Below, one piece after another: positions 60,003-64,000 of a DNA stretch of 64,000 nucleotides (position 1 is the first letter of the stretch; each line of letters opens with the position of its first letter). Origin of the DNA: Flavihumibacter cheonanensis. Its GTDB lineage: Bacteria > Bacteroidota > Bacteroidia > Chitinophagales > Chitinophagaceae. The stretch spans positions 1,240,001-1,304,000 of the forward strand of contig NZ_JAKRWF010000001.1 in the NCBI RefSeq assembly GCF_022352215.1, given 5' to 3'. The position numbers and the translations under genes were made by a program. Under the pieces are notes generated by a model. The model searched no databases and had not been told where the DNA came from. It was given only the letters and a program-made list of their open reading frames with translations.

Positions 60003-63000
60003 TTATTTTACGCTTACTAATACATTTATTTTACCAATTCCGCTACCAGAATAATCCTGCAGCGCTTTACCAAGCACCTGCCCAACTTTTACCTTTTCTG
60101 GATCTGCTTTCATGGCAACTCCTGGAATGCTGGAGGTAACAATGAGGTCGCCTCTTTTAATGGCACCGCCTTCCATACAAACTTTGGTTGGCAATACACC
60201 AATAACCCCCATCGGAACGCCGAAGCTAAGGTCTCCTTCTGTTGCATTTTCTTCTGTCAGTAACAAACCTGGTTTAGTTGCATAAACGCCTGCAACCAGA
60301 GTAGAATACGCACCACTTGATTTTACCATCTTACGGTCATCCGTAGTTGAAATTTCCAGTACATCACCTGGCTCATACGCATTTCTATTGCCTACAACAG
60401 CGAATAATTCAGCAACATCTGCGCCAGAATTAGTGGTACCGCCATTAAAGAAACCACGGCCGTTTTCATCAATACGTGCTACGTTGGCGCCATTTGTTTC
60501 AAAAATAGCATGGCTGGCAGAACCAGCCTGTCCAATTACAGACTTGATACCAATTCCTCCGGTAAACCCTTCCATATTGGTTTCTGTTTGTATCCCAATA
60601 CCTTGAGGAGCATATCCTAAAATCGCTGCAAAGGTTTCTGTATTCCTTGCATCAATTGCAGCCGCGAAGTCTGAACTGGTTGCCGAATAAACACCCACTC
60701 CATTCGTAAGATTCTGAACTTCAATAGAAGGAGCCGTACTATTTAAATGAAGGATCTTCAATCCAGCTCCTTGTTCGGTAATAACACTAATTCCATCACC
60801 ATACATGTTGTATACATTCAACACTTCTCCCATATTGCTCATTTCTGTATTCTCAAATCTCGCTGCATTATTTCCCTGACTGGTAGCAAAAATTGCAGGT
60901 TCTGAATTACTTCTCGCAACGACACCATAAGTTGAGGTGGATTGTCCGAATACACCTACACCCCCTACCGATTCTCCATAAATGGCTGTACCACCGCCAC
61001 GATGCCTGCCAAATATTGCAAATCCATTATTGGTTGTTGCACTTGACACTTCTCCAAACAGACCTGTGGCAAGAAAACTGGGAGCTGCATTGGTTATACT
61101 ACCAGCTATACCAATAGCTGCAGGGCCTGCTGAATTATTGCTTCCAGCAATAGCAGTACCATTACCTGAATTAGTCAAACCAAACATTTCTCCTGCAACA
61201 TTCGTGGTATTGGTGAAAGGGAATGTCAATCCACCACCACCCGCATTATCAGTTCCCGGAGCCCATTGGGTTCCATTATATTTAAGCACCTGTCCAACTG
61301 TTGGTGCAGTGGTTGATACAGCTACTCCATTGATCCTGCCTACGGTTGGGTTGGGATAGGTACCGGATAGATCACCGCCTGCAGTGCCGCTTACCGGCAA
61401 GGAGGTTGGAATAACACCCGGCGCTATTTTAGCAGCCGTAATTGCACCATCCTGCACATTGGCAGTGGCTACCGAATTAGTTGCCAGTTTTGCATTAGTC
61501 ACTGCACTTGCAGCAATTTTATTGGAGCTAACAGCATTGTCAGCCAGTTTATTAGAGTTAACAGCCGCATCCAAAATCTTTGCTGTACTTACAGCACCAT
61601 CAGCCAGTTTGGTATTGCCCACTGCGCCATCAGCAATCTTTGCAGAACTTACCGCACCATCTGCAATTTTAGTAGCACCTACTGCATTGTTTGCAATGGT
61701 TGGGTTCGGATAAGTTCCCGTTAGATCGCCACCCGCAGTGCCACTAACTGGCAGAGATGTAGGAATCACACCGGGAGCAATCTTGGCAGCCGTAATAGCA
61801 CCATCCTGCACGTTAGCAGTTGCGATGGAGTTAGTTGCCATTTTTGCATTGGTCACTGCACTTGCAGCAATTTTATTGGAGTTGACAGCATTGTCTGCCA
61901 GTTTGGTAGTACCTACAGCACCATCCGCGATTTTAGTAGCACCCACTGCATTGTTTGCTATAGTAGGGTTGGGATAGGTACCTGTTAGGTCACCACCTGC
62001 TGTGCCACTTACCGGCAAGGAGGTAGGAATCACACCCGGTGCAATCTTAGCAGCCGTAATCGCACCATCCTGCACATTAGTAGTTGCTACAGCATTGGTG
62101 GACAGTTTTGCATTTCCTACCGCACCATCGGCGATTTTGGCTGCTCCTACTGCACCATCCGCAATTTTAGTTGCACCTATTGCATTGTTGGCGATGGTTG
62201 GGTTCGGATAGGTACCAGTTAAATCACCACCCGCAGTGCCGCTAACTGGTAAAGAGGAAGGAATTACACCAGGCGCCAGCTTAGCTGCAGTGATCGCACC
62301 ATCCTGCACATTGGCAGTGGCGATAGAGTTGGTTGCCATTTTTGCATTGGTCACTGCACTTGCAGCAATTTTATTGGAGCTGACAGCATTGTCTGCCAGT
62401 TTGGTATTGCTCACTGCACCATCAGCAAGCTTAGCTGCGCCAACCGCACCATCAGCAATTTTAGTTGCACTTACTGCATTGTTTGCAATGGTTGGATTTG
62501 GATAGGTACCAGTTAAATCACCACCCGCTGTACCACTTACTGGAAGCGAGCTTGGAATAACACCAGGCGCCAGCTTGGCAGCTGTAATAGCACCATCCTG
62601 TACATTAGTAGTTGCTACTGCATTAGAAGCGAGTTTGGTATTGCCCACTGCACCATCAGCAATTTTAGTTGCACTTACTGCATTGTTTGCAATGGTTGGG
62701 TTCGGATAGGTACCAGTTAAATCACCACCCGCTGTACCACTTACTGGAAGCGAGCTTGGAATAACACCAGGCGCCAGCTTGGCTGCAGTGATCGCACCAT
62801 CCTGCACATTAGTAGTGGCTACGGAGTTGCTTGCCAGTTTTGCATTGGTCACTGCATTCGCAGCAATTTTATTAGAACTAACAGCATTGTCTGCCAGTTT
62901 ATTGGAGTTCACGGCCGCATCGGTAATCTTAGCAGTGCTAACTGAACCATCAGCCAGTTTGGTATTACCAACCGCACCATCTGCAATTTTAGCTGCACCC

Positions 63001-64000
63001 ACTGCATTGTTGGCGATGGTTGGGTTCGGATAGGTACCAGTCAAGTCTCCACCAGCTGTTCCACTTACAGGAAGTGAGCTGGGTATCACACCAGGCGCAA
63101 GCTTGGCAGCCGTAATTGCACCATCCTGCACATTGGAAGTAGCAACTGCATTGTTTGCCAGTTTTGCATTGGTTACTGCATTTGCAGCAATTTTATTTGT
63201 GTTGATCGCATTATTAGAAATGGTTGGATTGGGGTAAGTACCAGTAAGATCCCCTCCTGCTGTACCACTTACTGGCACTGAAGAAGGAATAACACCCGGA
63301 GCTATTTTGGCTGCCGTAATCGCACCATCCTGCACATTAGCAGTGGCTACCGCATTGTTTGCCAGTTTCGCATTCGTGATTGCATTGGCATCAATTTTAT
63401 TAGTGCTGACAGCATTGTCTGCCAATTTAGTTGTACTTATTGCACCATCCACAATCTTAGAAGTTCCAACTGCATTGTTAGCAATGGTTGGATTTGGATA
63501 GGTACCTGTAAGGTCACCACCAGCTGTTCCACTCACCGGAAGCGAGCTTGGAATAACACCCGGAGCCAGTTTAGCTGCTGTGATCGCACCATCTGCTACT
63601 TTATCCGTACTAATGCTACCAGTTGCAATTTTTGATCCGGATACAGCACCGTCTTTTATTGTTGGATTGGGAAAACTTCCATTCAGATCCCCTCCGGCCG
63701 CACCAACAGGATTGGCAGATTCTGCTCTGAATGCAAAAGGCACACTGGTCAACGGACTAGTACCCATTGCCATAAACTGGTTGCCTCCTTTAGGATCCAT
63801 TTCAACCTGGAGAAACTTGGCAGTACCGGTAGACCAGTTAATACCGTTTAAAGAACCTGAAACCGAGCTGGCGCCTTCACCACCAATTGCGGTAGAAAAA
63901 AGACCAAACTGGTTAGTGGTTACAGAACGGGTTTCCTGGTAAATAACTGCTCCGGTTGCATTAGCTTCCCGGATGGTTAAACGAAGATTAATGGTTTGAT
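60003..64000 (-). CDS. Large fibre-like surface protein with nested decapeptide repeats (5' end outside window)
   Basis: The frame is open to the right window edge: 1331 residues are visible and the true start lies outside. Its first visible part (LTIREANATGAVIYQETRS, then INWSTGTAKFLQVEMDP and SVPFAFRAES) is a domain that often opens Bacteroidota fibre-like proteins. Next come nine blocks. Each has 3 to 9 decapeptides of the type NAVGATKIAD / GAITAAKLAP, followed by a 28-residue spacer with SGTAGGDLTGTYPNPTI. Then follow VGQVLKYNGTQWAPG, a Gly/Ala/Asn-rich region and a C-terminal domain with LVAGVYATKPG and IKRGDLIVTSS. Probably exported and surface-bound. Confidence 0.88.
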   Translation of the reverse strand, partial: QTINLRLTIREANATGAVIYQETRSVTTNQFGLFSTAIGGEGASSVSGSLNGINWSTGTAKFLQVEMDPKGGNQFMAMGTSPLTSVPFAFRAESANPVGAAGGDLNGSFPNPTIKDGAVSGSKIATGSISTDKVADGAITAAKLAPGVIPSSLPVSGTAGGDLTGTYPNPTIANNAVGTSKIVDGAISTTKLADNAVSTNKIDANAITNAKLANNAVATANVQDGAITAAKIAPGVIPSSVPVSGTAGGDLTGTYPNPTISNNAINTNKIAANAVTNAKLANNAVATSNVQDGAITAAKLAPGVIPSSLPVSGTAGGDLTGTYPNPTIANNAVGAAKIADGAVGNTKLADGSVSTAKITDAAVNSNKLADNAVSSNKIAANAVTNAKLASNSVATTNVQDGAITAAKLAPGVIPSSLPVSGTAGGDLTGTYPNPTIANNAVSATKIADGAVGNTKLASNAVATTNVQDGAITAAKLAPGVIPSSLPVSGTAGGDLTGTYPNPTIANNAVSATKIADGAVGAAKLADGAVSNTKLADNAVSSNKIAASAVTNAKMATNSIATANVQDGAITAAKLAPGVIPSSLPVSGTAGGDLTGTYPNPTIANNAIGATKIADGAVGAAKIADGAVGNAKLSTNAVATTNVQDGAITAAKIAPGVIPTSLPVSGTAGGDLTGTYPNPTIANNAVGATKIADGAVGTTKLADNAVNSNKIAASAVTNAKMATNSIATANVQDGAITAAKIAPGVIPTSLPVSGTAGGDLTGTYPNPTIANNAVGATKIADGAVSSAKIADGAVGNTKLADGAVSTAKILDAAVNSNKLADNAVSSNKIAASAVTNAKLATNSVATANVQDGAITAAKIAPGVIPTSLPVSGTAGGDLSGTYPNPTVGRINGVAVSTTAPTVGQVLKYNGTQWAPGTDNAGGGGLTFPFTNTTNVAGEMFGLTNSGNGTAIAGSNNSAGPAAIGIAGSITNAAPSFLATGLFGEVSSATTNNGFAIFGRHRGGGTAIYGESVGGVGVFGQSTSTYGVVARSNSEPAIFATSQGNNAARFENTEMSNMGEVLNVYNMYGDGISVITEQGAGLKILHLNSTAPSIEVQNLTNGVGVYSATSSDFAAAIDARNTETFAAILGYAPQGIGIQTETNMEGFTGGIGIKSVIGQAGSASHAIFETNGANVARIDENGRGFFNGGTTNSGADVAELFAVVGNRNAYEPGDVLEISTTDDRKMVKSSGAYSTLVAGVYATKPGLLLTEENATEGDLSFGVPMGVIGVLPTKVCMEGGAIKRGDLIVTSSIPGVAMKADPEKVKVGQVLGKALQDYSGSGIGKINVLVSVK
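61335..63700 (-). repeat. Two-level repeat: 30-bp units grouped in nine blocks
   Basis: Using one fixed point of the spacer (plus-strand positions 63700, 63526, 63262, 63058, 62734, 62530, 62236, 62002, 61738, 61384), successive distances are 174, 264, 204, 324, 204, 294, 234, 264 and 354 bp. Each equals 84 + 30n with n = 3, 6, 4, 8, 4, 7, 5, 6, 9, that is 52 decapeptides in all. The last two units of each later block (a unit ending NVQD, then GAITAAK-L/I-AP) are constant. Confidence 0.9.

Follow-up and report, generated by a model that had tools for sequence, protein, structure and literature searches.

The mosaic adhesive trimer (MAT) fibers of Bdellovibrio bacteriovorus comprise a signal peptide, a conserved N-terminal domain, a long fiber, and a variable tip, and their defining domain is a conserved, beta-rich stretch of ∼130 amino acids that follows the signal peptide (PMC10769870). 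Phage T4 gp5 is described as a trimeric, triple-stranded beta-helix with a short repeat, VxGxxxxx, the extension of which lets length be changed (PMC4576200).

The window analyzed here, a 64,000-nucleotide stretch of the Flavihumibacter cheonanensis genome, carries a fiber-like protein in a single minus-strand frame (60003-63998). The full-length protein has 1373 amino acids, of which 1331 fall within the window; the start codon falls past the end of the window, and the full open reading frame was located at L002:1004-5125(-). G000:C110 holds the gene as one open frame of 1379 amino acids, the sole match in its own genome. The protein start, outside the window, reads as signal-peptide-like and the fiber is apparently exported, while profile scans of the protein identified no type IX secretion (T9SS) C-terminal sorting domain (Por_Secre_tail). 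With its signal-peptide-like start, N-terminal domain, long fiber, and variable tip, the protein shares the layout described for MATs. It differs in that one MAT_N-like place was found in this genome, compared with 21 MATs in strain HD100, and in that a quantized decapeptide stalk is absent from the portion of the MAT description used (PMC10769870). It also has no Peptidase_S74 match in Pfam and a different C-terminal domain. The likeness to T4 gp5 is one of description, and the gp5 repeat, as described, has 8 residues and lacks a spacer hierarchy (PMC4576200).

Architecture of the repeat array

Ten AGGDL(T/N/S)G motifs were identified in the frame. Nine blocks were parsed, which in N-to-C order contain 3, 6, 4, 8, 4, 7, 5, 6, and 9 decapeptides, each run being followed by a 28-residue spacer (Table 1). 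The block lengths and coordinates of a first-pass annotation of this DNA were thereby reproduced, and the same 28-residue spacer was found to close all nine blocks, as it had claimed. Its statement that each later block ends with the same two units was true of eight of the nine: these end in xxN(A/S)(V/I)ATxNV followed by QDGAITAAK(I/L), from which block 1 deviates. The 52 decapeptides in the window are of 37 kinds; position 5 is V or I and position 10 is I, L, V, or M in all 52, and position 9 is K in 44.

Table 1. Features of the fiber gene within the window
Feature	Position	Strand	Basis
Fiber gene, part within window	60003..63998	(-)	1331 codons + stop; start codon outside window
N-terminal domain, part within window	63699..63998	(-)	NCBIfam NF053851 Bdello_MAT_N, below cutoff; first part outside window
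First motif, AGGDLNGSFPNPTI, opening the array	63657..63698	(-)	Motif parse
Block 1: 3 decapeptides + 28-aa spacer	63483..63656	(-)	Motif parse
Block 2: 6 decapeptides + spacer	63219..63482	(-)	Motif parse
Block 3: 4 decapeptides + spacer	63015..63218	(-)	Motif parse
Block 4: 8 decapeptides + spacer	62691..63014	(-)	Motif parse
Block 5: 4 decapeptides + spacer	62487..62690	(-)	Motif parse
Block 6: 7 decapeptides + spacer	62193..62486	(-)	Motif parse
Block 7: 5 decapeptides + spacer	61959..62192	(-)	Motif parse
Block 8: 6 decapeptides + spacer	61695..61958	(-)	Motif parse
Block 9: 9 decapeptides + spacer with end AGGDLSGTYPNPTV	61341..61694	(-)	Motif parse
Most recent array duplication	62446-62618 + 62650-62822	(-)	173 bp, 95.4% identical, shift 204 bp
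Distal region: GQVLKYNGTQWAP linker, Gly-rich tip, conserved C-terminal domain	60006..61340	(-)	Alignment of 15 sequences
Hypervariable tip zone (distal residues 151-250)	60591..60890	(-)	Identity versus F. fluminis (L083)
Conserved C-terminal domain (VARIDENGRGFFNGG..GADVAEL..VLVSVK)	60006..60482	(-)	Alignments A1, A2

Relation of the repeat unit to described families

Eight stretches of the protein matched Pfam PF19264, DUF5907 ("Repeat of unknown function"; E value, 3.5e−23; 82 bits against a cutoff of 27), and L002:3017-3658 alone scored 33.8 bits, above the 27-bit cutoff. At an E value of 0.001, DUF5907 was found in 20 of 79 sampled relative genomes and in none of 14 control genomes. Among phage families, PHROG 892 was matched over 11 stretches (365.4 bits; E value, 1.4e−108), and the tail-fiber families matched were PHROG 892, 28766, 21412, and 7660. 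Matches at an E value of 1e−5 were obtained in 104 of 50,697 phage records, each at <60% identity, and runs of such decapeptides reach up to 11 in cyanophage NATL2A-133 and up to 10 in S-TIP37. The earlier description of the protein as fiber-like is supported. Its suggestion that the repeat, in this exact hierarchy, falls outside any described family is not: judged by these profiles, the decapeptide brick is already known from DUF5907, PHROG tail-fiber repeats, and phages.

The DUF5907 model represents one 80-position repeat and is silent on the 28-residue spacer hierarchy and the integer block lengths. Literature searches yielded no description of the two-level decapeptide/spacer layout, nor was the term DUF5907 found in the literature searched. 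In a strict-motif scan of 26 viral or phage loci (L099 to L124), at least two PNPT-type anchors and decapeptide runs never occurred together; five of these loci (L114, L115, and L118 to L120) had no frame of >125 amino acids and were hence uninformative. L109 had a single anchor and one two-unit run, and L103 three anchors and zero runs. Searching the PDB with the whole protein sequence gave one match only (E value, 0.12). Matches to Pfam PsaO_TMD (37.3 bits, above the cutoff of 27), to NCBIfam CbpB, to HetL in F. petaseus, and to beta1 designs were judged to reflect composition.

Quantization and duplication across the genus

In the nine genomes parsed from this genus, whole decapeptides made up 92 of the 94 segments between anchors. 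The two that could not be parsed were both from G003 and carry a different, 44-residue linker. As block borders were defined by the motif and not by length, the quantization is not a product of chance. The spacer was 28 amino acids long in 87 of the 92 segments and otherwise 27, 30, or 31. Segments numbered 9 in G000, G001, G004, and G008, 8 in G003, 10 in G014, 11 in G013, 12 in G009, and 17 in G012. The parse left out G006 (frame breaks) and the fragmentary G002, whose parsed blocks were also whole numbers, and the five segments of G057, from the same order, were unparsed. All gaps relative to the sister species G004 (5/5) and G008 (7/7) were multiples of 10 residues and lay inside the array, so that the predicted length change by whole decapeptides held between species in 12 of 12 gaps. 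An assembly artifact, raised in the first-pass annotation as a way in which its reading might fail, is ruled out because separate assemblies, including the single-contig G012, have the same architecture.

Change by whole blocks was also confirmed, as species-specific duplications. Several genomes carry near-identical duplications of their own (e.g., 1091 bp at 91.8% in G008), and 26 of 27 listed duplication shifts equaled k × 84 + m × 30 bp; by comparison, this form fits 228 of 467 multiples of 3. No long near-identical duplication was found in G001 or G003. For the most recent duplication in the window array (Table 1), Tandem Repeats Finder reported a period of 204 with 94% matches. The proposal of a stalk whose length varies by recombination at two scales therefore stands between species, on the quantized gaps and the species-specific duplications; the sole near-identical pair of loci (L090 and L091; 99.2% over 2202 nucleotides) was gap-free and showed no copy-number change.

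The blocks had been described as very similar in their DNA. Taken over the final two units plus spacer, the 36 block pairs in the window had a mean identity of 89% in protein and 78% in DNA, and their third codon positions were only 50% identical, so the claim was too strong, yet the kinship at the DNA level is real: identical residues shared the same codon at 0.524, compared with 0.398 (standard deviation, 0.010) in 300 codon shuffles. Codon sharing exceeded the maximum of 300 shuffles in eight of nine genomes, the exception being G003; this and the block matching covered blocks with at least two units and a 28-residue spacer (4 to 16 per genome). Third positions at 50% identity point to slow turnover in the window array, and because third-position identity between G000 and G004 was no lower (0.51, compared with 0.50 within the window blocks), the array shows no excess similarity over that of its sister. 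Window blocks 1 to 3 matched blocks 1 to 3 of G004 best (0.71, 0.66, and 0.72) and block 9 matched block 9, with blocks 4 to 8 out of place; relative to G008 and G014, block order was not kept.

These third-position identities, the retained places of blocks 1 to 3 in G004, and the lack of long duplications in G001 and G003 would also suit a quantization that reflects structural constraint only, with old blocks, rare in-register indels, and little recombination between blocks. We consider this unlikely, given the long, nearly identical duplications that several genomes each have to themselves, codon sharing above all shuffles in nearly every genome, and segment numbers that vary from 8 to 17.

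N-terminal and distal domains

The N-terminal domain, as a 174-residue fragment, matched NCBIfam NF053851 (Bdello_MAT_N) at 45.4 bits (E value, 7.4e−12) and the whole protein did so at 38.9 bits, both below the cutoff of 60; the match spans model positions 3 to 77 of 162, with the signal-peptide region included. By this profile, the domain appears to resemble weakly that of the Bdellovibrio MAT fibers. A PDB sequence search with the N-terminal domain returned nothing better than an E value of 0.34.

In the distal region, identity to F. fluminis (L083) was 0.32 to 0.52 in the four 25-residue intervals of the tip zone and 0.76 to 1.00 in the other 14, which places a variable zone between conserved parts. 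A Pfam scan of the C-terminal domain of the window copy was empty at an E value of 10. A Peptidase_G2-like C-terminal chaperone found no Pfam support. The AF2 model of the distal region (alignment A2, 15 rows) had a mean pLDDT of 55.4 and a pTM of 0.40, with block means of 70 to 87 pLDDT for residues 141 to 300. Its best Foldseek matches in the PDB were to the streptococcal phage hyaluronidase HylP (6wv2, 6wxa, and 2dp5; E value, 3.1e−4; probability, 0.99), structures that we take to be triple-stranded beta-helix trimers. The top six HylP matches had TM scores of 0.18 (query) and 0.27 (target) at 12 to 14% identity on this model of pTM 0.40, and comparison with 2dp5 gave 0.27/0.35. Against viral models, Foldseek gave weak matches, three at an E value of ≤0.001 with TM scores of ≤0.18. 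The best E value in a PDB sequence search with the distal region was 1.2, and no PHROG match to it was found.

Collagen stalks and gene neighborhood

Twenty relatives carry both the N- and C-terminal domains, and the slot between them holds a decapeptide stalk in 16 and collagen in 4, the latter spread over three genera (Pfam Collagen E value in G020, 1.1e−28). These were retained from 28 loci, of which three (G129, G157, and G169) had no motif frame despite open frames and five had no N-terminal domain in the frame read. That collagen can fill the stalk slot argues for a trimer. It also speaks against the array being a flexible, disordered Ala/Asn/Thr-rich linker rather than a folded stalk, as do the strictly kept register of the units and their fixed residues at positions 5, 9, and 10. 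Such a linker would agree with the AF2 monomer model of two blocks (alignment A3, 12 rows), in which strands were absent (pLDDT, 48.7; pTM, 0.17). However, monomer predictions often fail for intertwined trimers, and this too was counted against a disordered linker, which we regard as quite unlikely.

Eighteen of 20 loci contain a homolog of the 182-residue neighboring protein, each encoded upstream of the fiber gene and on its strand, 23 to 212 nucleotides before the first fiber-gene ATG (27 loci were searched and 20 taken by place, the other seven representing these genomes in a second collection). The 667-residue protein encoded upstream carries Por_Secre_tail (39.1 bits; cutoff, 23), which was marginal in the 182-residue protein (13.1 against 23, and 22.2 against 27 in Pfam). 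When 10 neighboring proteins were compared with PHROG (E value, 0.001), eight had no match and two matched a sigma factor and a trypsin-like protease; no phage structural protein was among them. Pfam matches in the neighborhood were Sigma70_r2, Trypsin_2, 3-keto-disaccharide hydrolase, Iso_dh, cNMP_binding (twice), and an iron-dependent repressor. The PHROG tail-fiber matches and the repeat in 104 phage records would be expected of a phage or tailocin tail-fiber gene, with a prophage-borne array and a protein still acting in a phage-like particle. Set against the signal-peptide-like start, the absence of phage structural proteins from the 10 neighbors, a distal region without PHROG matches, and an upstream partner gene kept in 18 of 20 loci, that origin appears highly improbable.

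Proposed model and implications

The locus probably encodes a secreted, trimeric surface adhesin of the MAT-like or phage-tail-fiber kind, with a ruler-like stalk that changes length at two scales. An N-terminal base domain, a long stalk, a hypervariable triple-beta-helix-like tip, and a conserved C-terminal cap would together form a homotrimeric surface fiber. Its stalk would be the DUF5907-type array, in which the fixed 28-residue GGDLTGTYPNPT element may recur as a register-keeping joint between runs. Fold and frame would admit changes only by complete decapeptides or complete blocks, and repeat recombination would accordingly alter stalk length by 10 or 28+10n residues, and stalk length would in turn set the distance of the variable, putatively ligand-binding tip from the cell.

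Counted on the other side were the sub-cutoff MAT_N match, the weak HylP TM scores, the uninformative array model, and the slow turnover. The lost block order relative to G008 and G014, G001 and G003 without duplications, and the absence of within-species change in L090 and L091 were weighed likewise.

Given the stepwise stalk lengths and the collagen swap, the fiber has the appearance of a modular relative of phage tail fibers and predator adhesive fibers. A broader and more tentative proposal is that Chitinophagaceae possess a so far undescribed MAT-like system in which stalk cassettes, either a decapeptide ladder or collagen, can be swapped between the same base and cap, with a hypervariable trimeric tip, a conserved partner gene upstream, and tuned adhesin reach. 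The GGDLTGTYPNPT spacer might there act as a joint that resets the register, so that stalk length would evolve as on a digital ruler, by increments of 10 residues and of blocks.

Many fibers of phages and bacteria contain repeats of the DUF5907 type, to which Pfam assigns no function. A genus with a strict two-level ladder and a collagen alternative offers a clean system for asking what the repeat does, namely, whether it serves as a stalk, and with how many chains, three if it is able to stand in for collagen. The same genus also allows the evolution of fiber reach to be studied, and it may link Bacteroidota surface fibers with the MAT adhesins that predatory bacteria carry.

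Layout of the array and its register across the genus

The repeat pattern reported in the first-pass annotation is correct. When the minus-strand fibre gene was parsed by its ten AGGDLxG motifs, these bordered nine blocks of 3, 6, 4, 8, 4, 7, 5, 6, and 9 decapeptides, each closed by a 28-residue spacer, reproducing the block counts and spacer length originally proposed. The gene was the sole match in a search of its own genome, and its nearest relative was a MAG fragment (95.0% DNA identity across 978 bases).

Across nine genomes of the genus, whole decapeptides made up 92 of 94 segments between anchors (the motifs bordering the blocks); the remaining two, both from G003, were not parsed. 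The spacer was 28 residues long in 87 of 92 cases. Unit and segment counts varied from species to species, and exact counts from short-read drafts may be wrong, with matches in G002, G005, G007, and G011 ending at contig ends. Codon alignment of the window gene with those of its sister species F. fluminis (G004) and G008 identified 5 and 7 gaps, respectively, and all 12 were multiples of ten residues within the array. Since the architecture is common to separate assemblies, including the single-contig genome G012, the array is not an assembly artefact. In a second single-contig genome, G006, the orthologous array (L070:2795-8791) was found in three frames of 919, 228, and 870 codons, and these breaks are either real or sequencing errors in the repeats.

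Features of the fibre locus and of related loci carrying collagen-like stalks
Feature	Location	Strand	Detail
Fibre gene	63998 to 60003 (window)	minus	1373 codons in genome
Hypervariable zone of fibre tip	60591-60890 (window)	minus	defined by identity to F. fluminis
182-aa protein gene	L002:5152-5700 (full fibre locus)	minus	directly upstream of fibre gene, 26-nt gap
Collagen-like stalk, same N- and C-terminal domains	L076		63 Gly-X-Y triplets
Collagen-like stalk, same N- and C-terminal domains	L153		9 Gly-X-Y triplets
Collagen-like stalk, same N- and C-terminal domains	L154		31 Gly-X-Y triplets
Collagen-like stalk, same N- and C-terminal domains	L156		30 Gly-X-Y triplets

Affiliation of the repeat and gene neighbourhood

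The first-pass annotation knew of no described family with this exact hierarchy. Profile searches assigned the array to Pfam DUF5907, a known family of unassigned function, and matched it to PHROG tail-fibre families. Using the array as a tblastn query, 104 of 50,697 phage records were matched at an E value of 1e-5, every one below 60% identity. Decapeptide runs were seen in the cyanophages NATL2A-133 (up to 11 units) and S-TIP37 (up to 10), and a few units were present in orf16, solved as chain 9eg4_H (profile E value, 0.0025). Within the family, decapeptides combined with GGxLxGxxPxP motifs also occur outside the genus (G016, G042, G082, G089, and G146), with a less regular layout and spacers of varying length in G082 and G089; a strict motif scan of viral loci did not find the combination. 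Locus L149 of G146 holds a frame of 2512 codons, in which decapeptides form at least 14 runs, each 3 to 11 units long.

That the fibre gene is itself a phage fibre gene was already improbable, and this reading is now considered very unlikely because none of ten neighbouring proteins scanned was phage structural. The 182-aa protein carries a marginal T9SS sorting end and is preceded, after a 21-nt gap, by a 667-aa T9SS protein. Of 20 loci, 18 had a homologue of the 182-aa protein, and two of these 18 carry collagen stalks; the two loci in which none was identified, G020 and G150, are both collagen-stalk loci. All 18 lie on the fibre's strand, 23 to 212 nt ahead of its first ATG, and the protein may be a putative anchor or exporter of the fibre.

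Stalk exchange and terminal domains

Among 20 relatives in which the N- and C-terminal domains could both be read, 16 had decapeptide stalks and four, from three genera (G020, G150, G128, and G140), had Gly-X-Y stalks. The latter occupy the slot of the decapeptide stalk with 9 to 63 triplets, followed by one GGDLxGxYPxP element; that of G020 matched Pfam Collagen (E value, 1.1e-28). A collagen helix needs three chains, which argues that the fibre family is probably trimeric, with the decapeptide array as a trimeric stalk. This exchange is the best argument on fold because monomer structure prediction of the array yielded no fold.

The N-terminal domain weakly matched the NCBIfam model of Bdellovibrio mosaic adhesive trimer (MAT) fibres (45.4 bits; E value, 7.4e-12), below the cut-off of 60. 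Three congeners scored 29, 35.6, and 36.8 bits, and the model had no match in any of 14 control genomes. MAT fibres are described as secreted and trimeric; a conserved domain follows their signal peptide, and their tips can be exchanged (PMC10769870). As far as the literature search reaches, the strict two-level layout, the exchange with collagen, and the link to a MAT-like base are new.

Beyond the array, four 25-residue windows (∼100 residues) of the tip shared 0.32 to 0.52 identity with F. fluminis, whereas each of the 14 remaining distal-region windows had at least 0.76; this zone is a candidate ligand-binding face. The distal-region model was confident at approximately residues 141 to 300 only, and its best structural matches were phage hyaluronidases (E value, 3.1e-4; TM, 0.18/0.27). 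The final 160 residues were strongly conserved in the alignment and matched no family in a Pfam scan. This C-terminal domain is uncommon, being identified at an E value of 1e-20 in 18 of 147 genomes drawn from Chitinophagaceae; nine of its 17 relatives among named genomes were titled Flavihumibacter, including the two nearest, which makes Flavihumibacter (family Chitinophagaceae) the most likely genus of the window. The GADxAE C-terminal domain also closes other frames with different upstream sequence (L094, L095, and L096), from MAGs titled Geobacter, Bacteroidetes, and Acidobacteriaceae, and is perhaps a mobile cap module.

Turnover of the array

For the core common to the window's blocks, identity between blocks was 89% at the protein level, 78% at the DNA level, and 50% when only third positions were compared. 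The last value compares with 51% between the window and G004; most blocks are thus close in age to the divergence from that species. Codon sharing at identical residues in the window (0.524; shuffle mean, 0.398) was above every one of 300 shuffles, as it was in seven of eight other genomes, the exception being G003 with four blocks. Genome-specific near-identical duplications were identified in the window (173 bp, 95.4%), G008 (1091 bp, 91.8%), G012 (776 bp, 93.6%), and G014 (632 bp, 92.6%), and the same scan revealed no long one of note in G001 or G003. Taking the best three shifts per genome, 26 of 27 had the form k × 84 + m × 30 bp, versus 228 of 467 multiples of 3 generally.

Window blocks 1 to 3 and 9 had the G004 block of the same number as best match, whereas blocks 4 to 8 did not, and block-to-block comparison with G008 and G014 revealed no kept order. 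The sole near-identical pair, loci L090 and L091, had no gap over 2202 nt in common. Between species, gap lengths and genome-specific duplications uphold the length-variable stalk first proposed, and the comparisons fit a tandem array that would have been turned over by recombination, at the scale of both unit and block, over species time.
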